Source of the DNA: Microlunatus flavus
GTDB taxonomy: Bacteria; Actinomycetota; Actinomycetes; Propionibacteriales; Propionibacteriaceae
Direction of reading: 5' to 3'
Length of the DNA: 64,000 nucleotides
Assembly (NCBI RefSeq): GCF_900110855.1
Contig: NZ_FOFA01000009.1
Location: 62,001 to 126,000 of the forward strand
Part shown: one piece after another, positions 5,608-50,751 of the stretch
Position numbering within the stretch: position 1 is the stretch's first letter
Layout of the letters: the number at the start of each line of letters is the position of its first letter
Notes under the pieces: generated by a model
What the model was told of the DNA's origin: nothing
What the model saw: the letters and a program-made list of their open reading frames with translations, nothing else
Databases searched by the model: none
Made by a program: the position numbers and the translations under genes

Positions 5608-9462
<3,855 letters not shown>

Positions 9463-9574: not shown

Positions 9575-12500
9575 TCAGACTTCTTCGACGGCCCCGAAGC
9601 CCTCACCGGGGCGGCGGGACAGGTCGATGCCGAAGTCCTCGCTGCTGCGGTAGTCGTCCTCGGAGTCGCGGAGCTCCACCTCGGTGCCGTCGGAGGAGAG
9701 CACCTCGACGTTCAGGCAGAGGGACTTCATCTCCTTCACCAGCACCTTGAAGGACTCCGGGATCCCGGGCTCGGGGATGTTCTCGCCCTTGACGATGGCC
9801 TCGTACACCTTCACGCGGCCGGGGACGTCGTCGGACTTGATGGTGAGCAGCTCCTGCAGGGCCCAGGCCGCGCCGTACGCCTCGAGGGCCCACACCTCCA
9901 TCTCGCCGAACCGCTGGCCACCGAACTGCGCCTTACCACCCAGCGGCTGCTGCGTGATCATCGAGTACGGGCCGGTCGAGCGCGCGTGGATCTTGTCGTC
10001 GACCAGGTGGTGCAGCTTGAGCATGTAGATGTAGCCCACGCCGACGGGCTCGGGGAAGGGCTCCCCGGAGCGGCCGTCGAACAGGTGCGCCTTGCCGTCG
10101 CCGTTCACGAGACGGTCGCCGTCGCGCGTCGGGAGCGTCTGGCTGAGCAGCCCGGTGATCTCCTCCTCGGTCGCGCCGTCGAAGACCGGCGTGGCCAGGC
10201 GGGAGTTCGCCTCGACGTGACCGACACCGACGTCGCGCAGGCGGGCCGCCCACTCGCCCTCGACACCCTCGAGGTCCCAGCCGGTCTTGCCCAGCCAGCC
10301 GAGGTGCGTCTCCAGCACCTGGCCGACGTTCATCCGGCTCGGCACACCCAGCGGGTTGAGCACGATGTCGACGGGGGTCCCGTCCTCGAGGAACGGCATG
10401 TCCTCGACGGGCAGGATCTTCGAGATGACGCCCTTGTTGCCGTGCCGGCCGGCGAGCTTGTCGCCGTCCTGCACCTTGCGCTTCTGGGCCACGTAGACGC
10501 GGACCAGCTGGTTGACCCCGGGGGCCAGCTCGTCGTCGGACTCGCGGTCGAAGACCCGGACGCCGATGACGGTCCCGGACTCGCCGTGGGGCACCTTGAG
10601 GGAGGTGTCGCGGACCTCGCGCGCCTTCTCGCCGAAGATCGCGCGCAGCAGCCGCTCCTCCGGCGTCAGCTCGGTCTCGCCCTTGGGCGTGACCTTGCCG
10701 ACGAGGATGTCACCGGTCGAGACCTCGGCGCCGATGCGGATGATGCCGCGCTCGTCGAGGTCGGCCAGCATCTCCTCGCTGACGTTGGGGATGTCGCGGG
10801 TGATCTCCTCCGCCCCCAGCTTGGTGTCGCGGGCGTCGACCTCGTGCTCCTCGATGTGGATCGAGGTGAGGATGTCGTCCTGGACGATCCGCTGGCTGAG
10901 GATGATCGCGTCCTCGTAGTTGTGGCCCTCCCACGGCATGAAGGCGACCAGCATGTTGCGGCCGAGCGCCATCTCGCCGTTGTCGGTGCAGGGACCGTCG
11001 GCGAGCGGCGACCCCTTCTCCACGCGCTGCCCCTCGCTCACCAGCGGGCGCTGGTTGATGCAGGTGCCCTGGTTGGAGCGCTTGAACTTCGACAGCCGGT
11101 AGGTCGTGTAGGTGCCCTCGTCCTCGGCGATCTCGACGAGGTCGGCGGACACGGCGGTGACCACACCGGGCTTCTTGGCGACGGTCACGTCACCGGCGTC
11201 GACGGCCCCGCGGTACTCCATGCCGGTGCCCACGTACGGGGCCTCGGAGCGGAGCAGCGGCACGGCCTGCCGCTGCATGTTCGCGCCCATCAGGGCACGC
11301 GACGCGTCGTCGTGCTCGAGGAACGGGATCATCGCGGTGGCGACCGAGACCATCTGGCGCGGCGAGACGTCCATGTACTGGATGTCGTTGGCCGGCACGG
11401 TGTCCGGGTCGGCCTTGCGGCGACGGGCGAGGACCCGCTCCTCCGCGAAGTGGCCGTCCTCGGTCAGGGCCGCGTTCGCCTGGGCGATCGTGTAGCGGTC
11501 CTCGACGTCGGCGGTCAGGTAGTCGATCTGGTCGGTGACCTGACCCTCGACGACCTTGCGGTACGGCGTCTCGACGAAGCCGAACGCGTTGACCCGCGCG
11601 AAGGACGCGAGCGAGCCGATGAGGCCGATGTTCGGGCCCTCGGGCGTCTCGATCGGGCACATGCGGCCGTAGTGCGACGGGTGGACGTCACGGACCTCCA
11701 TGCCGGCGCGGTCGCGGGACAGACCACCCGGGCCGAGCGCGTTCAGACGCCGCTTGTGCGTCAGGCCGGCGACCGGGTTGGTCTGGTCCATGAACTGGCT
11801 GAGCTGCGAGGTGCCGAAGAACTCCTTCAGCGCCGCGACGACCGGGCGGATGTTGATCAGGGTCTGCGGCGTGATGGCCTCGACGTCCTGGGTCGTCATC
11901 CGGTCGCGGACCACGCGCTCCATGCGGCCGAGGCCGGTGCGCAGCTGGTTCTGGATCAGCTCGCCCACGGTGCGCAGGCGACGGTTGCCGAAGTGGTCGA
12001 TGTCGTCCTCTTCGACCAGCAGCTCGCCGCGCGGGGACTCGAGGGTCTCCTTGCCCTCGTGCAGCGCCACGATGAAGCGGATGGCGGCGACGATGTCCTC
12101 GGTCCGCAGCACCTGCTGGTCGAACGGCGCGTCCAGGCCCAGCTTCTTGTTGATCTTGTACCGGCCGACCTTGGCGAGGTCGTAGCGCTTCGGGTTGAAG
12201 TAGTAGTTCTCCAGCAGCGCCTGAGCGGCCTCGCGCGTCGGCGGCTCGCCCGGGCGCAGCTTGCGGTAGATGTCGAGGAGCGCCTCGTCCTGGGTGGTGA
12301 CGTGGTCCTTCTCGAGCGTGAGCCGCATGGACTCGTACTCGCCGAACTCCTCGAGGATCTGCGCGTCGGTCCAGCCGAGCGCCTTGAGCAGGACGGTGAC
12401 GTTCTGCTTGCGCTTGCGGTCCAGGCGGACGCCGACCATGTCGCGCTTGTCGATCTCGAACTCGAGCCACGCACCGCGGCTCGGGATCATCTTGCAGGTG

Positions 12501-13060
12501 AAGATGTCCTTGTCCGAGGTCTTGTCGGTGGTCTGCTCGAAGTAGACGCCCGGCGAGCGGACGAGCTGGGAGACCACGACGCGCTCGGTGCCGTTGATGA
12601 CGAAGGTGCCCTTGTCGGTCATGAGCGGGAAGTCGCCCATGAAGACCGTCTGGCTCTTGATCTCGCCGGTCTCGTTGTTCATGAACTCGGCCGTGACGAA
12701 GAGCGGGGCGGCGTACGTGACGTCGCGCTCCTTGCACTCGTCGACGGAGTTCTTGGGCGGCTCGAAGCGGTGGTCGCGGAAGGACAGCGACATCGTGCCG
12801 CTGAAGTCCTCGATCGGGGAGATCTCCTCGAAGATCTCCTCCAGGCCGGACTTGTTGTTCACGTCGGTCTTGCCCTCGGCGAGGGCGGAGTCCACCCGCT
12901 CGCGCCAGTCGGCGTTACCGACCAGCCAGTCGAACGCGTCGACCTGCAGGTCCAGCAGGTCGGGGACTTCCATGGGTTCGGCGATCTTCGCGAACGAGAT
13001 CCGGCCGGTGGTCGAGATGACCGGGTTGATGTTCTTCGAGGCGGTGCGCGAGGCGGCCAA
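9575..13060 (-). CDS. rpoB: DNA-directed RNA polymerase subunit beta
   Basis: Second-largest RNA polymerase subunit, 1161 residues, forming the other half of the active cleft and the rifampicin pocket. The start is an unusual TTG at 13060, supported by GGAAGGA 8 nt upstream. The rifampicin region begins [19 protein letters not shown] and continues [20 protein letters not shown]: the residue equal to E. coli Ser531 is Asn440 (codon AAC at 11741-11743) and that equal to Ser522 is Ala431, while Asp516 and His526 equivalents are kept. Two promoters lie upstream. Asn at position 531 is known in naturally rifampicin-resistant spirochetes; resistance here is an inference. Confidence 0.99.
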
Positions 13061-14003: not shown

Positions 14004-14396
14004 TCACTTGTAGGAGACGGTGGCGCCGGCGGCCTCGAGGGCAGCCTTGGCCTTGTCCGCGGTCTCCTTGTTGACGCGCTCCAGGACGGCCTTCGGCGCG
14101 GCCTCGACCAGGTCCTTGGCCTCCTTGAGACCGAGGCTGGTGAGGGTGCGCACCTCCTTGATGACCTGGATCTTCTTGTCGCCGGCCGCCTCGAGGATGA
14201 CGTCGACCTCGTCAGAGGCCTCCTCCTCCTCGGCAGCGCCGCCGGCGCCGCCGGCCGCGGGGGCCGCGGCAACGGCGACCGGAGCGGCCGCGGTGACGCC
14301 GAACGTGGTCTCGAACTCCTTCACGAACTCGCTGAGCTCGATGAGGGTGAGCTCCTTGAACGCGTCGAGGAGCTCGGCGGTGCTGAGCTTCGCCAT
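14004..14396 (-). CDS. rplL: 50S ribosomal protein L7/L12
   Basis: Multi-copy stalk protein that recruits translation factors. It has 130 residues: an N-terminal dimerisation helix ([20 protein letters not shown]), an Ala/Gly-rich hinge, and the globular C-terminal domain with EKTEFDVIL replaced by the normal variant [14 protein letters not shown] and the factor-binding [13 protein letters not shown]. The start lies 15 nt after the rplJ stop with GAAGGGAC as ribosome-binding site. A terminator hairpin follows at 13924-13960. Confidence 0.98.
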
Positions 14397-14411: not shown

Positions 14412-15089
14412 TTAGTTGTTGTCCGCAGCAGGAGCTGCCGTCTCGGCGGAGTCCTCCGCCTGGGGTGCAGCGGCTGCTGCGGTGCCGGCCTCGTCGTCGA
14501 CGGGGCTGGCGGTGGTGTCGGGCTCCGGATCGGTGCTCGCGGCGGGCGTCCCGGCCCCGGCGATGACCGCCGGGTTCTCGGTGGCGGCCTGCTCCAGCGC
14601 CGCCAGCAGACGGGCGGCCTGGGAGAGCGGGGCGGAGACGAGGCCGATGGCCTGCTGCAGGACACCCTGCATGCCACCGGCGACCTTGGCCAGGAGGACC
14701 TCGCGGGACTCCAGGTCGGCCAGCCGGCGGAACTCGTCGGACGTCATGGACTTTCCGTCCAGGACGCCACCCTTGATGATCAGGAGCGGGTTGGCCCGTG
14801 CGAAGTCGCGCAGCCCCTTCGCGACGGCGACGGCGTCGCCCTCGATGAAGGCGATCGCCGTCGGCCCGCTGAGGTGCTCCTCGACGCCGGGGACTCCGGC
14901 GTTGCGGGCGGCGATCGTGGTGAGCGTGTTCTTCGACACGGCGTAGGTGGCGTCCTCACCGAGTGAACGGCGCAGGTCCTTCAGCGCCTTCACGGTGAGT
15001 CCGCGGTACTCGGTCAGCACGGCGCCCTGCGAACCCTGGAACTTCTCCGTGAGCTCGGCGACCGCGGCTGCCTTGTCCGGCCTCGCCAT
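14412..15089 (-). CDS. rplJ: 50S ribosomal protein L10 with extended C-terminal tail
   Basis: Stalk base protein that anchors L7/L12 dimers and represses its own operon. Residues 1-170 match L10 throughout ([46 protein letters not shown]). The total of 225 residues exceeds the family's usual ~175: about 50 extra residues from 175 are Ala-, Asp/Glu- and Pro-rich and look disordered. Its promoter (15306-15335) and an L10-type leader lie upstream, and rplL follows after 15 nt. The tail is in frame with the conserved part, so it is real coding sequence. Confidence 0.97.
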
Positions 15090-15489: not shown

Positions 15490-16077
15490 GTGAAGGTTCA
15501 GACGTCCCGCCTCGTGACCGCGCTGGTCGCGCTGGCGGTGTCCCTCGGCCTCCTGGTGGGGAGCTCCGGTTCCGCGTCCGCGGACGAGCCGGTCCCGTCG
15601 AGCGGCGCCACGGCGGTGAGCAGCGCCCCGGTCCCGAGCACCACGACCCTCGCCAGCGCCACGGTCACGGCGCAGGACGTCGCCGTGAAGAGCACCGCCA
15701 AGGCCAGCACCACCAAGAAGAAGAAGAAGACCAAGGGCGAGAAGGCGCTCGCCTTCGCCAAGAAGCAGCTGGGCGAGAAGTACAAGTACGGCGCCGCCGG
15801 CCCGAACCGCTGGGACTGCTCCGGGCTGACGATGAAGGCCTGGGGCGCGGCGGGCAAGAAGCTGCCGCACAGCGCGAAGGCGCAGTACAAGAAGGGCAAG
15901 AAGATCAAGAAGTCGAAGCTCCGCAAGGGCGACCTCGTCTTCTTCTACTCCGGGCCCTCCCACGTGGGCATCTACGCCGGCGGCGGCAAGGTCATCCACG
16001 CGCCGAAGCCCGGCTCGAAGGTCAGCTACATCAAGATGAAGTACATGCCGTTCAAGGGCGCGCGCCGACCGGGCTGA
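15490..16077 (+). CDS. Secreted NlpC/P60 family peptidoglycan endopeptidase
   Basis: Extracytoplasmic cysteine peptidase expected to cleave stem peptides of peptidoglycan. The 195 residues comprise a signal peptide (hydrophobic 9-24, likely cut after ASA at 31), a low-complexity Ser/Thr linker, a Lys-rich stretch (TKKKKKTKGEK) and a C-terminal NlpC/P60 domain. The catalytic residues appear as Cys110 in RWDCSGL, His158 in PSHVGIY and His170 in KVIHAP. The start is GTG at 15490 with AAGGAG 6 nt before it. It is divergent from rplJ and stands alone. The basic linker may bind anionic wall polymers; that is an inference. Confidence 0.93.
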   Translation: MKVQTSRLVTALVALAVSLGLLVGSSGSASADEPVPSSGATAVSSAPVPSTTTLASATVTAQDVAVKSTAKASTTKKKKKTKGEKALAFAKKQLGEKYKYGAAGPNRWDCSGLTMKAWGAAGKKLPHSAKAQYKKGKKIKKSKLRKGDLVFFYSGPSHVGIYAGGGKVIHAPKPGSKVSYIKMKYMPFKGARRPG

Positions 16078-16121: not shown

Positions 16122-16658
16122 ATGTCCGTCCAGCACTCCGCCGCCCCGTTCGAGCCCACCGCCACCGTCCGTGAGGGACGCCCCGACGACGTGGGCACGG
16201 TCGTGGACATGGTCCGCGAGCTCGCCGAGTACGAGCGGGCGGCCGACCAGGCGCGCATCACGCCCGAGCAGCTGCACCGCGCGGTGTTCGAGGGCGCGGC
16301 CCCGGGCGGGCACCCCGCCGCCTACCTGCTCGTCGCCGAGGAGCCCGGCGCCGACGGTCCCGTGGTCGTCGGCTTCGCGCTGTGGTTCCTGAACTACTCC
16401 ACCTGGGAGGGCGTCCACGGGATCTACCTCGAGGACCTCTACGTCCGTCCCGCCTCCCGCGGCACCGGAGCCGGCCGGGCCCTGCTGACCGCCCTCGCCC
16501 GCACCGCCGTCGAGCGGGGCTACGCCCGGGTGGACTGGTCGGTCCTCACCTGGAACGAGCCGGCGATCGGCTTCTACCGCCGCATCGGCGCGATCCCGCT
16601 CGAGGAGTGGCGCACCTACCGCTTGACGGGCTCGGCGCTCGCGTCGCTGGCCCGCTGA
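16122..16658 (+). CDS. GNAT N-acetyltransferase (diamine acetyltransferase-like)
   Basis: Acetyl-CoA-dependent acetyltransferase of 178 residues. The core shows VRPASRGTGAGRALLTALAR (acetyl-CoA-binding R-x-x-G-x-G/A) and a C-terminal NEPAIGFYRRIGA typical of spermidine/diamine acetyltransferases; the middle segment LNYSTWEGVHGIYLEDLYV is also typical of that subgroup. The ATG at 16122 is preceded by CACAGT with a 6-nt spacer and no ribosome-binding site, suggesting a leaderless start. The 3' end overlaps the convergent MFS gene by 43 bases. The substrate is not certain. Confidence 0.88.
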   Translation: MSVQHSAAPFEPTATVREGRPDDVGTVVDMVRELAEYERAADQARITPEQLHRAVFEGAAPGGHPAAYLLVAEEPGADGPVVVGFALWFLNYSTWEGVHGIYLEDLYVRPASRGTGAGRALLTALARTAVERGYARVDWSVLTWNEPAIGFYRRIGAIPLEEWRTYRLTGSALASLAR

Positions 16659-18031
16659 ACCCGCGCGCCGCGACCCAGCCCGAACCAGCTGACCCCGGCT
16701 CCGACGAGCAGGGCGGCGGCCCCGGCGAGCATCGCCGTGGGGAAGCCGTGCTGCAGCGCCGTGGGGTCCTCGGTGCTGGCCGTGGAGAGCCCGGCCAGCG
16801 CGGGGATCACCGCGACGGCCAGCAGCCCCGCCGTACGCGCGACCGCGTTGTTCACCCCGGACGCCGCGCCGGACAGCTGCTCGGGGGCGGCCGCGAGGAC
16901 GGTGGCGGTCAGCGGCGCCACGGCGAGCGAGAGCCCGAGCCCCAGCAGGACGGCCGAGGGCGCCAGGTCGGTCAGCCAGTGCACGTCGGCGTCCAGCCGC
17001 GCGGCGAGCGCGAAGGACGCGGCCGCCAGCAGGCTCCCGGTCGCCATCAGGACCCGTGGCCCGGTGCGGACGGCCAGGGCCCCCATCCGCGACGACAGCA
17101 GCAGCATGAGCACCGTGGCCGGCAGCATCGCCGTGCCCGCGGCCAGCGGTGACCAGCGGGCTACCACCTGCAGCTGCAGGACCACCAGGAACCCGTAGAC
17201 GCCCAGCCCGCCGTAGATGAAGAACGTGGCGGCGTTGGTGGCGGTGAAGACGCGGTCGCGGAAGATCCGCAGCGGCACGAGCGGGTGCGAGCTGCGGTCC
17301 TCCACGACGACGAACGCGACCCCGGCGGCCAGCCCGACCACGCCGGCGGCGACGACCGGGGCCGTCCAGCCCCGGCTGCCAGCCTCGGTCAGGGACCAGG
17401 TCAGCCCGGACAGGCTCACGACGACCGCGACCGTCCCGAGGAGGTCGAGCCGGCTCGTGGCGTCGAGGGTGTCGCGCGTCTCGGGGACGTGGCGGAGCGT
17501 GCCGAACAGCACCAGCGCGGCGAGCGGGAGGTTGATCAGGAACACCAGGCGCCAGTCGAGCGCGACCAGCCAGCCGCCGAGGAACGGGCCCACCGCCCCG
17601 GACAGCCCGCTGAGCCCGGCCCACAGCCCGACCGCCCGCGGCTGGTCGCGCGGGACGAAGGCCGAGGACAGGATGGCCAGGCTGCCCGGGGTCAGCAGGG
17701 CGGCCCCCACCCCCTGCAAGGCGCGGGCGCCGATGAGGACCTCCGACGACGGGCTGGCCGCACACAGCGCGGACGCGACCGCGAACCACACGACCCCGGC
17801 GAGGAAGACGCGGCGCCGGCCCAGACGGTCGCCGAGGACGCCGCCGAGCAGGATCAGCGCCGCCAGCGTCAGCGTGTAGGCGTTCGTGATCCACTGCAGC
17901 GCCACGAAGCCCGCGTCGAAGTCCTCGCCGATCCGGGCGAGCGCGACGTTCACCACGGTCGAGTCGAGGAAGGCCATCCCGGAGCCGGCGATCGTCGCCG
18001 CGAGCACCCAGCGACCCTGCGCCGTCCCCAT
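16616..18031 (-). CDS. MFS drug:H+ antiporter (DHA2 type)
   Basis: Proton-driven multidrug efflux permease of 471 residues with about 14 hydrophobic segments. The family motifs are visible: LDSTVVNVALARIGEDF in the first segment, GDRLGRRRVF (motif A) after the second and GPFLGGWL in the antiporter motif C region. The ATG at 18031 starts directly before the first conserved segment. It lies 65 nt after the EamA gene on the same strand behind a small hairpin. Its last 43 bases overlap the end of the convergent GNAT gene. Confidence 0.92.
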   Translation of the reverse strand: MGTAQGRWVLAATIAGSGMAFLDSTVVNVALARIGEDFDAGFVALQWITNAYTLTLAALILLGGVLGDRLGRRRVFLAGVVWFAVASALCAASPSSEVLIGARALQGVGAALLTPGSLAILSSAFVPRDQPRAVGLWAGLSGLSGAVGPFLGGWLVALDWRLVFLINLPLAALVLFGTLRHVPETRDTLDATSRLDLLGTVAVVVSLSGLTWSLTEAGSRGWTAPVVAAGVVGLAAGVAFVVVEDRSSHPLVPLRIFRDRVFTATNAATFFIYGGLGVYGFLVVLQLQVVARWSPLAAGTAMLPATVLMLLLSSRMGALAVRTGPRVLMATGSLLAAASFALAARLDADVHWLTDLAPSAVLLGLGLSLAVAPLTATVLAAAPEQLSGAASGVNNAVARTAGLLAVAVIPALAGLSTASTEDPTALQHGFPTAMLAGAAALLVGAGVSWFGLGRGARVQRASDASAEPVKR

Positions 18032-18053
18032 GCGTACGGACCCGGCCACGTCC

Positions 18054-18069
18054 CAACCCCCTGGGGTTG
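18054..18069 (-). terminator. Small hairpin between EamA and MFS genes
   Basis: CAACCCC and GGGGTTG form a tight 7-bp stem. It lies 28 nt beyond the EamA stop on the minus strand and may partly terminate the rplA-EamA transcript. Confidence 0.4.
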
Positions 18070-18096
18070 CCGGTGCCGGCGCGGCGTGCCCCGCGC

Positions 18097-18909
18097 CTAC
18101 TCGGCGAACCTCACCAGGGAGACCGTACCGGCGACGGCGAGGACGAAGCCCAGACCCGCGAGCGGGAGCTGCCCCGGGAGCACGCCGTCGCCGAAGAGGA
18201 CGACCCCGAGCAGCGACGGCACGAGCAGCTCGAGCATGAAGGTCACCGCCGTCACGGTCGTGACGTCGCCGCGCTGCAGGGCGAGCGCGAAGAAGATCGT
18301 GCCCAGGACGCCCTGCACCACGACCGTCCACACGAGCGGGTGGGCGAGGGCGGACCAGCTCAGGTGCTCGGCGGAGAAGGCGCGGGAGGCCAGCGCCACG
18401 CCCGTCCAGGCGAGCCCCGCCGCGGCCGCGAGGACGACAGCGGCCGTCTTGCCCCGGAGCCGGAGCCCTACCAGGCCGACGGCGACCGGCACGACCGTGG
18501 CCGCGAGCAGCAGCCACTGCCCCGGCGGCAGGAGCGGCGCGGCCGGCGCGGGGTCGGCCGTCACGCAGAGCAGGACCAGGCCGGCGGCGAGACCGCCCAA
18601 CGAGGCCCAGTCCCGCCAGTCCAGGCGCTGGCCCCGGAGCGCGGCGACGAGCGCGGTGACCCCGACGCTGCCCACGAGGATCGACTGCACGAGGAACAGC
18701 GGCAGCCGCTGGAGGGCGACGACGTTGCCGACGAAGCCGACCCCGTCGAGCCCCAGGCCCACGAGGTACGGCAGCTGCCGCAGGATGCGCCCCACCCCGC
18801 CGAGGCCGCTCACCTCACCGGTGGAGTTGGCCCCGACCGACTGCAGGACCGAGCCGAGGCCGTAGCCCACGCACGCGACGAAGGCCGCCACCCAGCTCAG
18901 AGCGAGCAC
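18097..18909 (-). CDS. EamA/DMT-type membrane transporter
   Basis: Integral membrane protein of 270 residues with about nine or ten hydrophobic segments in two similar halves, as in drug/metabolite transporters. Conserved points are LPLFLVQSILVGSVG in the first half and VTTVTAVTFMLELLVPSLLG in the second. The GTG at 18909 lies only 34 nt after the rplA stop with no terminator between, so it may be co-transcribed with the ribosomal genes. Related DMT proteins occur beside many actinobacterial genes; the substrate is unknown. Confidence 0.87.
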   Translation of the reverse strand: MLALSWVAAFVACVGYGLGSVLQSVGANSTGEVSGLGGVGRILRQLPYLVGLGLDGVGFVGNVVALQRLPLFLVQSILVGSVGVTALVAALRGQRLDWRDWASLGGLAAGLVLLCVTADPAPAAPLLPPGQWLLLAATVVPVAVGLVGLRLRGKTAAVVLAAAAGLAWTGVALASRAFSAEHLSWSALAHPLVWTVVVQGVLGTIFFALALQRGDVTTVTAVTFMLELLVPSLLGVVLFGDGVLPGQLPLAGLGFVLAVAGTVSLVRFAE

Positions 18910-47673: not shown

Positions 47674-50670
47674 TCAGCGAACCGTCACGTCGAACGTCGA
47701 GCGCGCCGTCGTGCCGTTCACGTCGGCGACCTGGTAGCCGACCGGCGGCACGGGACCGGTCGCCGTGCCGGACGGGACGAAGGTGATCTGGCCGCTCACG
47801 GAGACCAGGAAGGTCCCGTGACCGGCGACCGCGAGCGTCTTCGCGTCGCCCGCGAGGACGGATCCGGACGGCAGGCCGGGCGTGGTCCGCAGCCGCACGC
47901 TCGGGGCGACGAGCGGCACCGCGGGTGAGCCGGGCAGGTCGTTCGCCAGCACCGGGACGACGACCGGCTCGCCCGCCGCGGTCGTCGCCGTGTCCGGCTT
48001 CGCGACCGGGTCGGACCCCAGCACGGTGACGGTCAGGGTGGAGGTGAGGTCGAGGACGGCCGGGTTCGCGCCGAGCACGGGCACGCGGTCGCGCAGCGCG
48101 ACGGTGACCGGGCCGGCCGTCCCGCGGAACCCGCGTTCCGGGGTGAAGCCGACCGTCTGGTTGCCGGGGCTCACCGCGTACGAGCCCTGGCCCGGCACGG
48201 TCAGGCGGGAGCCGCCCGCGCTCGTCGTCGACCCGGCGGGGAGGCCACGGGTGGTGAGCCGCGGGTCCAGCCAACGGGACGGCGTGCCGATCTGGGGGCT
48301 CCGGCCCGGGTAGTCGTTCAGGAGCACGTTGACGTCCACGCGCCGGCCCTGCCGCGTGGTCGCGGCGTCCGGCTCCGCGGAGGCGCCCGGCAGGATCGTG
48401 ACGGTCAGGGTGGCGTAGTCGTGGTTGCCGTACGTGTCGGTGATCGAGTAGCCGACCGGGATCGTGTCCCCGACGTAGCCCGCCACCGGCGGCACGGTCC
48501 CCACGAAGTCGGGGCTCGGGGTGAAGACGATCGTCCCGGCCGCGCGACGGGTCTGGTAGACGCCCTGGCCGGGGACGACCAGGCGCTGCTCGCTGCCGAC
48601 GTCCTCGATCCGGGTGCCGGCCGGGAGCAGCGGCACCTGGTCGCGCAGGAAGCCGAGCTTCGCGTTCACGAGCGGGTGGATCCCGGGGACGTCGTTCGAC
48701 TGGGCCGCGAGGGTGACCGGGAGCTGGGTGGTGGTGACGCCGTGGTCGTCGGACGCCTCCGGCAGCGCGGCGGGCGTCGGCGGGACGGGCGTGCCGGGCA
48801 CGGTGACGCTGAGGGTCCCCGTGAGCCGCGTGCCGCCGGTCGTCAGCGCCTCGTAGGTCAGGGTGGGCACCGTGCCGGCGAAGCCGGGGTACGGGCTCGC
48901 GTCGAAGGTGAGCGTCCAGTCCCGCGTCTGGACGAAGTCGCCGACGCCCTGGATCCGGATGCTCGAGCGGTCGGCGACGGTGCTGATCCGCCGCCCGGCC
49001 GTCGGGGACACCGACGCCAGCTCCAGCGTGGTCCGGTCGAACGTGGCGGGCGACCCGTCGGCGTTCAGCCCCGGGTCCGCCTCGGCCAGCACGTCCACCG
49101 TCACCGCCGTGCCCTGCGCGGTCGTCACCGCGATCGGCGCGGCCGTCGGCCCTCGTCGCAGGGGTACGGCCAGCCGGCCGACGGCGCTGCGCCCAGCGAC
49201 GTCGTAGACGCGGTAGGAGAGCTGCGCGGTCGTCCCCGCGTGGCCGCCGGCGGCGGGCGTGAAGCGGACCGAGCCGTCGGGCAGGACGGCCCAGCGTCCG
49301 TCGGCGGTCGTCACCGCCCGGTCCCCGTACGCCGCGTCCGGCGTTCCGCCGACCAGGACCGTCCGGGTCGGGTCGAGCGCCGGTCCGCCGGCCGCGGAGG
49401 GGCGGTCGTTCGTCGCCCCCGGCAGCAGCACCGACGGTCCTCCGTCCACGGCCGGGACGGTGTCGTCGGTGGCGACCGGCGACGCCGCGGCGACGCGGAC
49501 CGAGACGCTGACCACGGCGTTGACGGCGGCGGTGGCGCCGACCGGCACCGCCGAGGCCTTCACCCGGGCGGTGAGCGCAGACGTCGACAGGTGGGCGGGG
49601 ACGACGGTCCTCGTCCCGCGGCAGGTCGTCGCCGCACCCGCACCGAGCGAGCCCCCGAGCGCGACGGGCGAGCAGGTGAGGGCCGGCAGCCCGGGTGCCG
49701 AGACGAGGAGGGCGCGCGCCGCCCGGTCGCCGCGGTTGCGGACGCTCACGCGGTAGCCCACCTGCTGTCCGGCCGTGGCGACCGACGTCGGGCTGGCCGT
49801 GGCCGTGACCGACAGGCCGTCCGCGGCGGCCGGCGCCGGCGTGACCTTCCAGCGCAGCGCGGAGCCGAGCAGGTGGTGCGTGACGTGCCCGTCCGCCGTC
49901 CGCGTCGTGTCCTGCACCTCGTAGGTGAGCGGGTCGCCCTCGTCACCGGTGTCGCCGGTGTACGTGGGGGCGGGCACGTAGGTGACCCGTCGGGTCGTCG
50001 CGTCGATGGTGAAGGTGCCGAGGCTCCCGGACGTCAGGACGAGACCGTCGGCGGACACGACGGCGTGGCTCTGCGCCCTCGACCAGCGCAGGGTCGAGCG
50101 GTCGAGCGTGCCGCGCGTGCCGTCGGCGTCGAAGCCGGGCCGGTCGTTCGCGAGGACGTCCACCGAGGCGGGCGCGCCCTGCACGGTGACCACCTGGTCG
50201 GCCCGGGCGCCCGACGTCGCCGAGACCGTCACGGTGGCGGTCCCCTCGTCGGTCCGCTCCCTGGCGTCGACGACCCGGTAGCGGACCGTCCTGGTTCCCG
50301 CCACGCCCCTGGAGCGGAAGGTGATCTCGCCGCTGGCGTCGTTGAGCGACCAGGTACCGAAACCCGCGTCGACGACCTGGTAGGACGCGACGGAGCTGCC
50401 CGGGGGCAGCGAGGAGAGCTGGTCGGTGGGGAACGAGGTCAGGCTGGGCTGGATCGCCTCCGACCCTGCGGTGTCGTTCCACGAGCCCGGCAGCACGATT
50501 GCGGGGCTCCCGAGGGCCAGGACGGCCGCGTCGTCCACGACCGTGGGTCCGACCCCGGCGGCCGACGCGGTCGACGGTGCCGCGGACAGCAGACCCAGGC
50601 CGGCGAGGAGCACGAGCGGCGCCCCCCAGGTGGAGCGGCGGACGAGCGGGGCGCTGGGACGTGCAGGCAC
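47674..50670 (-). CDS. Secreted fibril repeat protein C (A-like front plus B-like back)
   Basis: Longest member, 998 residues. Signal peptide (VLLAGLGLLSAAPSTASA), then about 280 residues colinear with protein A (VDDAAVLALGS, AIQPSLTSFPTDQ, SVDVLANDRPGFDADGTRG), then a DUF11-like module (LSVTATASPTSVATAGQQV) and CshA-type modules colinear with protein B to the end (GYQVADVNGTTARSTFDVTV). Thus C reads like A and B joined. The GTG at 50670 gives the best signal peptide; it has GAAGGTGG upstream. A consensus promoter (50752-50780) precedes it. No anchor motif at the C-terminus. Confidence 0.8.
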   Translation of the reverse strand: MPARPSAPLVRRSTWGAPLVLLAGLGLLSAAPSTASAAGVGPTVVDDAAVLALGSPAIVLPGSWNDTAGSEAIQPSLTSFPTDQLSSLPPGSSVASYQVVDAGFGTWSLNDASGEITFRSRGVAGTRTVRYRVVDARERTDEGTATVTVSATSGARADQVVTVQGAPASVDVLANDRPGFDADGTRGTLDRSTLRWSRAQSHAVVSADGLVLTSGSLGTFTIDATTRRVTYVPAPTYTGDTGDEGDPLTYEVQDTTRTADGHVTHHLLGSALRWKVTPAPAAADGLSVTATASPTSVATAGQQVGYRVSVRNRGDRAARALLVSAPGLPALTCSPVALGGSLGAGAATTCRGTRTVVPAHLSTSALTARVKASAVPVGATAAVNAVVSVSVRVAAASPVATDDTVPAVDGGPSVLLPGATNDRPSAAGGPALDPTRTVLVGGTPDAAYGDRAVTTADGRWAVLPDGSVRFTPAAGGHAGTTAQLSYRVYDVAGRSAVGRLAVPLRRGPTAAPIAVTTAQGTAVTVDVLAEADPGLNADGSPATFDRTTLELASVSPTAGRRISTVADRSSIRIQGVGDFVQTRDWTLTFDASPYPGFAGTVPTLTYEALTTGGTRLTGTLSVTVPGTPVPPTPAALPEASDDHGVTTTQLPVTLAAQSNDVPGIHPLVNAKLGFLRDQVPLLPAGTRIEDVGSEQRLVVPGQGVYQTRRAAGTIVFTPSPDFVGTVPPVAGYVGDTIPVGYSITDTYGNHDYATLTVTILPGASAEPDAATTRQGRRVDVNVLLNDYPGRSPQIGTPSRWLDPRLTTRGLPAGSTTSAGGSRLTVPGQGSYAVSPGNQTVGFTPERGFRGTAGPVTVALRDRVPVLGANPAVLDLTSTLTVTVLGSDPVAKPDTATTAAGEPVVVPVLANDLPGSPAVPLVAPSVRLRTTPGLPSGSVLAGDAKTLAVAGHGTFLVSVSGQITFVPSGTATGPVPPVGYQVADVNGTTARSTFDVTVR

Positions 50671-50751
50671 GGCGGGCCCACCTTCGAGGAAGTCGCTGGC
50701 CCGGTCCCCGGTCCGGCCGGCTGGCCGGAGCACCGCGGGACAGCAGGCCTG

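Follow-up and report, generated by a model that had tools for sequence, protein, structure and literature searches.

The window, by which we mean the whole 64,000-nucleotide stretch of Microlunatus flavus DNA that was analysed, carries an rpoB gene in the ordinary rplJ-rplL-rpoB-rpoC arrangement. The genes of this cluster and the two codons of the rifampicin pocket that concern us here are:

14412..15089, minus strand: rplJ, ribosomal protein L10 (Pfam)
14004..14396, minus strand: rplL, ribosomal protein L7/L12, upstream of rpoB (Pfam)
9575..13060, minus strand: rpoB, RNA polymerase beta subunit, 1161 aa with a TTG start as listed, six Pfam Rpb2 domains, over the NCBIfam rpoB cut-off
11768..11770, minus strand: codon GCC for Ala431 (E. 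coli position 522), read directly; the usual residue (201/240 rows, see below)
11741..11743, minus strand: codon AAC for Asn440 (E. coli position 531), read directly; the same codon in two sister genomes
5608..9462, minus strand: rpoC, downstream of rpoB (Pfam Rpb1 domains)

The nearest named RpoB proteins are those of Friedmanniella and Microlunatus, of the Propionibacteriaceae, and the 20 window proteins that were scanned proved to be ribosomal, transcription, transport, regulatory, surface and metabolic proteins. Between rplA and rplJ lie a small NlpC/P60 protein (15490-16077, plus strand) and a DHA2-type (EmrB subfamily) efflux MFS transporter (16616-18517, minus strand), and both were matched in the two sister genomes with Asn, in G140 and in G130. 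In G059 and G135 the stretch covers the rplA-rplJ gap and gave no MFS match; several other stretches stopped short of it. The transporter may at most be a candidate for rifamycin export. Elsewhere in the window (47674-50733, minus strand) a large protein combines Ig-like domains with adhesin repeats of the CshA type.

The first-pass annotation had placed Asn at the Ser531 position and Ala at the Ser522 position of the pocket, with the Asp516 and His526 equivalents intact. Direct reading of the minus strand gave AAC at 11743-11741 and GCC at 11770-11768, and confirmed that the equivalents of Asp516 and His526 (the latter His435) are unchanged. A sequencing or assembly error at 11741-11743, which that annotation had itself raised, would gain some credit from the fact that Asn lies two base changes from the serine codons (TCN) used in the family; however, two sister assemblies of the genus, with RpoB proteins 98% and 96% identical to that of the window, agree with it both in the pocket and in the AAC codon. 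Since two separate genomes carry the same AAC, we regard an error as very unlikely indeed, the least probable of all the explanations considered.

The annotation had also stated that the window holds a single rpoB, and this holds for the whole genome (4.79 Mb in 26 contigs, rated 100% complete), in which genome-wide searches returned one rpoB match and no second copy. This bears on the possibility that the gene is an extra copy with a specialised role, like rpoB(R) and rpoB2, a reading that could draw on the S431N substitution also carried by Nonomuraea rpoB(R) (PMC3536979). Yet the rpoB of the window is the only one in its genome, stands in the normal gene order and retains His435 (E. coli 526), which is Asn in genes of that type, and the reading is accordingly highly improbable. 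A second rpoB was also sought behind the pocket HRRRLS of the named Micromonospora loci, and was rejected when each of the 6 genomes asked, among them 2 of the three Micromonospora, had one copy.

Nor do we find much to recommend the proposal, likewise made in the first-pass annotation, that the substitution is the self-protection of a producer of an ansamycin of the rifamycin type. An altered pocket in a single rpoB would fit this proposal, and Amycolatopsis mediterranei carries, next to its rif cluster, an rpoB whose pocket is mutated (PMC7283461). The genome, however, which is rated 100% complete for all its 26 contigs, gave one ketosynthase (PF00109) match and no modular polyketide synthase, and no ansamycin-type enzymes were seen among the 20 window proteins scanned. 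The best-scoring description of the PF00109 match is FabF; it reaches 480 bits for the fabF model, just under the cut-off of 494, passes the beta-ketoacyl-ACP synthase II model PRK07314 (477 vs 387), and adjoins a gene that passes the FabH model. Ansamycins require modular polyketide synthases. Since the one ketosynthase match is of FabF type, the strain is not a producer by a known route; that the genome gave no ketosynthase match of the polyketide-synthase type contradicts the proposal, to which we give the same very low probability as to a specialised second copy.

To place the two residues among relatives, pockets were counted from alignments in three sets of rows. The family rows are 132 pockets from 133 loci, which represent 130 of the 152 genomes searched (147 plus 5 more); among the 22 other family genomes, 14 were without a match and 8 had fragments lacking the pocket. 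The class rows (n = 108), made up of the 28 best-scoring loci outside the family and 80 further matches picked by hand, were drawn from 246 genomes searched, with nearer relatives over-represented, and the named rows are 79 of 80 loci, some of them from non-actinobacteria. With G002 and G045, which have two contigs each, counted twice, Asn at 531 was found in 8/132 family rows and 22/108 class rows (30/240 together), and in 3/79 named loci. Ser or Asn stood at this position in all 319 rows, and nothing else. Ala at 522, by comparison, was present in 121/132 family rows, 80/108 class rows and 54/79 named loci. Therefore, although the first-pass annotation was right about the residue at 522, it is not noteworthy, being shared by 201 of the 240 family and class rows, and its candidacy as a second resistance residue was rejected as that of the majority residue in actinobacterial rows.

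Within the genus of the window's genome, Asn forms two groups, one consisting of this genome and two relatives and the other of a separate pair; the Asn440 of the window is thus shared, in the same codon, by two sister genomes and is not genus-wide, since 14 of the 19 genus genomes with the pocket read have Ser. An RpoB tree was built from 257 rows after removal of the pocket columns; it omits nine rows of <900 columns, each of them with Ser, and 51 named rows out of 79 (at most 70% identical, or short). The distribution of Ser and Asn at 531 on this tree required at least 17 state changes, compared with 28-33 after shuffling of the labels on the same tree (n = 50). Asn531 is therefore inherited within clades, yet recurrent. 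It is a recurrent natural variant among actinobacteria, known before from Streptomyces lividans. A family-stratified scan of RpoB columns for residues that accompany Asn531 scored positions 362, 319, 657 and others, with within-family relatedness uncontrolled, and we base no claim on it.

Several individual rows may be recorded here. In one family of the class sample, f21, which has large genomes (e.g., L235, L264-L266, L268-L271), Asn531 occurred in 14/19 rows, and an Arr match in 0/19 genomes. L099, from a genome of the same genus as the window's (G125), reads Met511, Asn517, Ser522, Ala523, Gln526 and Ser531, and that genome carries Arr. L315 (genome G272) has an altered pocket in which L511S occurs with H526N, and L044 (Actinomadura formosensis) combines D516Q with S522D in the only rpoB found in its genome.

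The codons bear on how Asn may have been reached. All 124 Ser codons at 531 in the family rows are TCN, from which AAC requires two base changes, while a single change leads to Leu (from TCG or TCA), Trp (from TCG), or Phe or Tyr (from TCC). These one-step alleles were never present at 531 in the rows read. Leu from TCG is an example of a clinical-type allele. Clinical selection is described as favouring changes at site 531 (PMC7073797). Since the one-step alleles are absent and Asn lies two steps off, these results suggest that Asn is a residue which the structure tolerates and which was reached slowly, over long periods, and not one produced directly by strong selection with the drug, although a mild benefit against the drug would be compatible with this. 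The argument is limited to the family, since AGC and AGT, which lie one step from Asn, encode serine in 1/86 class Ser rows and 17/76 named Ser rows.

We also asked whether the genomes carry Arr, Rox, Rph or HelR. None of the four was found over its curated cut-off in the window's genome. Arr was absent, and the best stretches resembling Rox (161 bits vs a cut-off of 800), Rph (251 vs 999) and HelR (236 vs 750) probably belong to other members of large superfamilies. In the genus (19 genomes with the pocket read; G144, without a pocket, is omitted), Arr or HelR over cut-off was present in 0/5 Asn and 11/14 Ser genomes (Fisher p 0.005, by genome counts that ignore relatedness, with G135 counted as lacking HelR although a 371-bit HelR-like fragment lies at the end of one of its contigs). 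When Rox was added, the counts became 2/5 and 12/14 (p 0.08), and the five Asn genomes represent only two origins, with only two independent pairs in the genus. Rph was over cut-off in 0/20 genus genomes. Over the wider sets of rows, and again by genome counts that ignore relatedness and include a few partial matches over cut-off (G002 and G045 now counted once), Arr was found in 0/8 Asn vs 39/122 Ser genomes of the family (p 0.10), in 1/22 vs 14/86 of the class rows (p 0.30), and in 1/30 vs 53/208 when both were pooled (p 0.004). In 14 independent pairs from family and class, Arr went with Asn in 1.0, against it in 4.3 and showed no difference in 8.7 (median p 0.375). Since the direction is retained under this control but is not significant, the inverse trend for Arr is a lead and not a result, and the inverse relation between Asn531 and Arr or HelR in the genus is suggestive but unproven.

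These counts are the main support for a rival explanation, in which Asn531 is an adaptive, target-based defence against rifamycins that in this clade replaces the Arr and HelR used by relatives. The lack of Arr from Asn genomes in family and genus, and the distance of the window genome's own Rox-, Rph- and HelR-like stretches from the cut-offs, are what such a defence would lead one to expect, and of some 1500 soils about half are reported to hold rifamycin-like clusters (PMC6175910). Nevertheless, the trend loses significance once relatedness is controlled, with only 2 pairs in the genus, and exceptions occur in both directions. Rox reaches or just exceeds its cut-off in two Asn genomes, G147 and G151 (contamination 7 and 8%), and in two Ser genomes, G140 and G150 (G150 being 83% complete), no enzyme of the set passes its cut-off; Rph-like proteins of ~600 bits (cut-off 999) occur in four genus genomes, and G284, an Asn genome outside the family, has Arr. 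We therefore consider an adaptive defence in this clade unlikely, though it has clearly more in its favour than the readings dismissed above. Marginally more doubtful is its extension to environmental actinobacteria at large, in which Asn531 would be a low-cost, long-standing defence at the target that has repeatedly replaced Arr and HelR or made them dispensable, this clade having none of the four tested enzymes and a polymerase that would itself be protective. As to the frequency of target changes in general, rifamycin target alleles have been put at 0.49% on average in metagenomes (PMC4494058).

The explanation that we favour, and think probable, is that the window holds the ordinary, single rpoB of a member of the Propionibacteriaceae, in which the Ser531 equivalent is Asn in a small clade of this genome and its two close relatives. 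No residue other than Ser and Asn was seen at this site in the rows read, and Asn has been gained or lost many times. The effect on rifamycins expected under this explanation ranges from none to modest; for the strain itself we infer that effect from the pocket and from the comparators discussed below. With Asn in the wall of the rifamycin pocket the polymerase would stay functional, this residue being sufficiently small and polar. Asn would remove the Ser hydroxyl that hydrogen-bonds the drug and would add some bulk, so that the rifamycin MIC might be unchanged or rise modestly, and would not reach the high-level resistance conferred by bulky residues at 531. Counting against our explanation, the Asn genomes of the genus lack Arr and HelR over the cut-off, whereas 11/14 Ser genomes carry at least one of the two, as if Asn had made both dispensable.

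Two consequences follow. Resistance codes for Ser531 that were drawn up for clinical use may be misapplied to environmental actinobacteria, in which Asn is a common natural state, and caution is called for. The idea worth keeping from the adaptive rival is the testable inverse relation between Asn531 and Arr or HelR: should it prove true in a larger, phylogeny-controlled survey, it would show that, in nature, alteration of the target is traded against defences that destroy or displace the drug.

Known systems point both ways on what Asn531 does. In E. coli, deep mutational scanning found that S531N, the same substitution at the same site as in the RpoB of the window, gave resistance to higher rifampicin concentrations, and according to its discussion that study did not identify S531L itself (PMC7073797). 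This result speaks for the adaptive rival and against our explanation. The E. coli change, however, was an introduced single mutation in a gammaproteobacterial polymerase, whereas the Asn of the window is a long-standing natural residue. Treponema stands on the same side of the argument: N531 reportedly correlates there with natural rifampin resistance, a correlation said to have been published by Stamm in 2001, and the first-pass annotation had rightly named Asn as the explanation given for spirochetes. Treponema RpoB resembles that of the window in having Asn at 531, but it is a spirochete polymerase and the resistance is a published correlation from outside the actinobacteria. Among solved polymerases, 7vpd chain C, which we take to be that of S. 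coelicolor, has Asn at the 531 site, and 8dy7 chain C has Ser. S531N and S522A have also been listed in tuberculosis samples, among so many other substitutions that the list is uninformative for a single change (PMC11123600).

The second-copy genes, Nonomuraea rpoB(R) and Nocardia farcinica rpoB2, provide a further comparison. In Nonomuraea rpoB(R), H426N and S431N are accompanied by three other changes (PMC3536979), and by the offset that makes H426 equal to H526, which is our own mapping, S431 would correspond to E. coli 531 and its replacement would be equivalent to that in the window. The difference is that these are second copies, with His526Asn and other changes. Reversion of N426 to His alone abolished the rifampicin resistance conferred by rpoB(R) in S. 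lividans (PMC5431353), so the remaining Asn of rpoB(R) did not suffice there. For rif cluster II the same paper cites a serine-to-tyrosine change, 'S531Y', a label at odds with the numbering used here.

S. lividans itself is an actinobacterium whose RpoB naturally has Asn, N442, at the Ser531 position; the serine found there in Saccharopolyspora erythraea is the one altered in the rifampicin-resistance mutation S444F (PMC2667423). Its antibiotic-activating rpoB mutations include N442Y, R440H and R440C (PMC2667423), of which N442Y appears from the context to have been selected on rifampicin, and the rpoB mutants S433L and S433P were obtained through rifampicin resistance (PMC3536979). No rifampicin MIC of a wild-type actinobacterium with Asn531, S. 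lividans and relatives of the strain included, was found in a partial survey of the literature. Since rifampicin-resistant mutants can be selected in S. lividans, a polymerase with Asn is still inhibited enough for selection. This counts against an adaptive defence, and the statement in the first-pass annotation that the essential copy would itself be resistant is not established. By analogy, high-level resistance would not be expected in the window's strain, in which the effect of Asn531 is probably modest or nil; by itself, Asn531 is weak evidence for drug resistance. S. lividans belongs to another family and is a host for selecting rifampicin-resistant rpoB mutants (PMC3536979), but the rpoB of the window resembles its gene in having Asn531 in the primary rpoB, present as a single copy within the ribosomal protein-rpoBC cluster.
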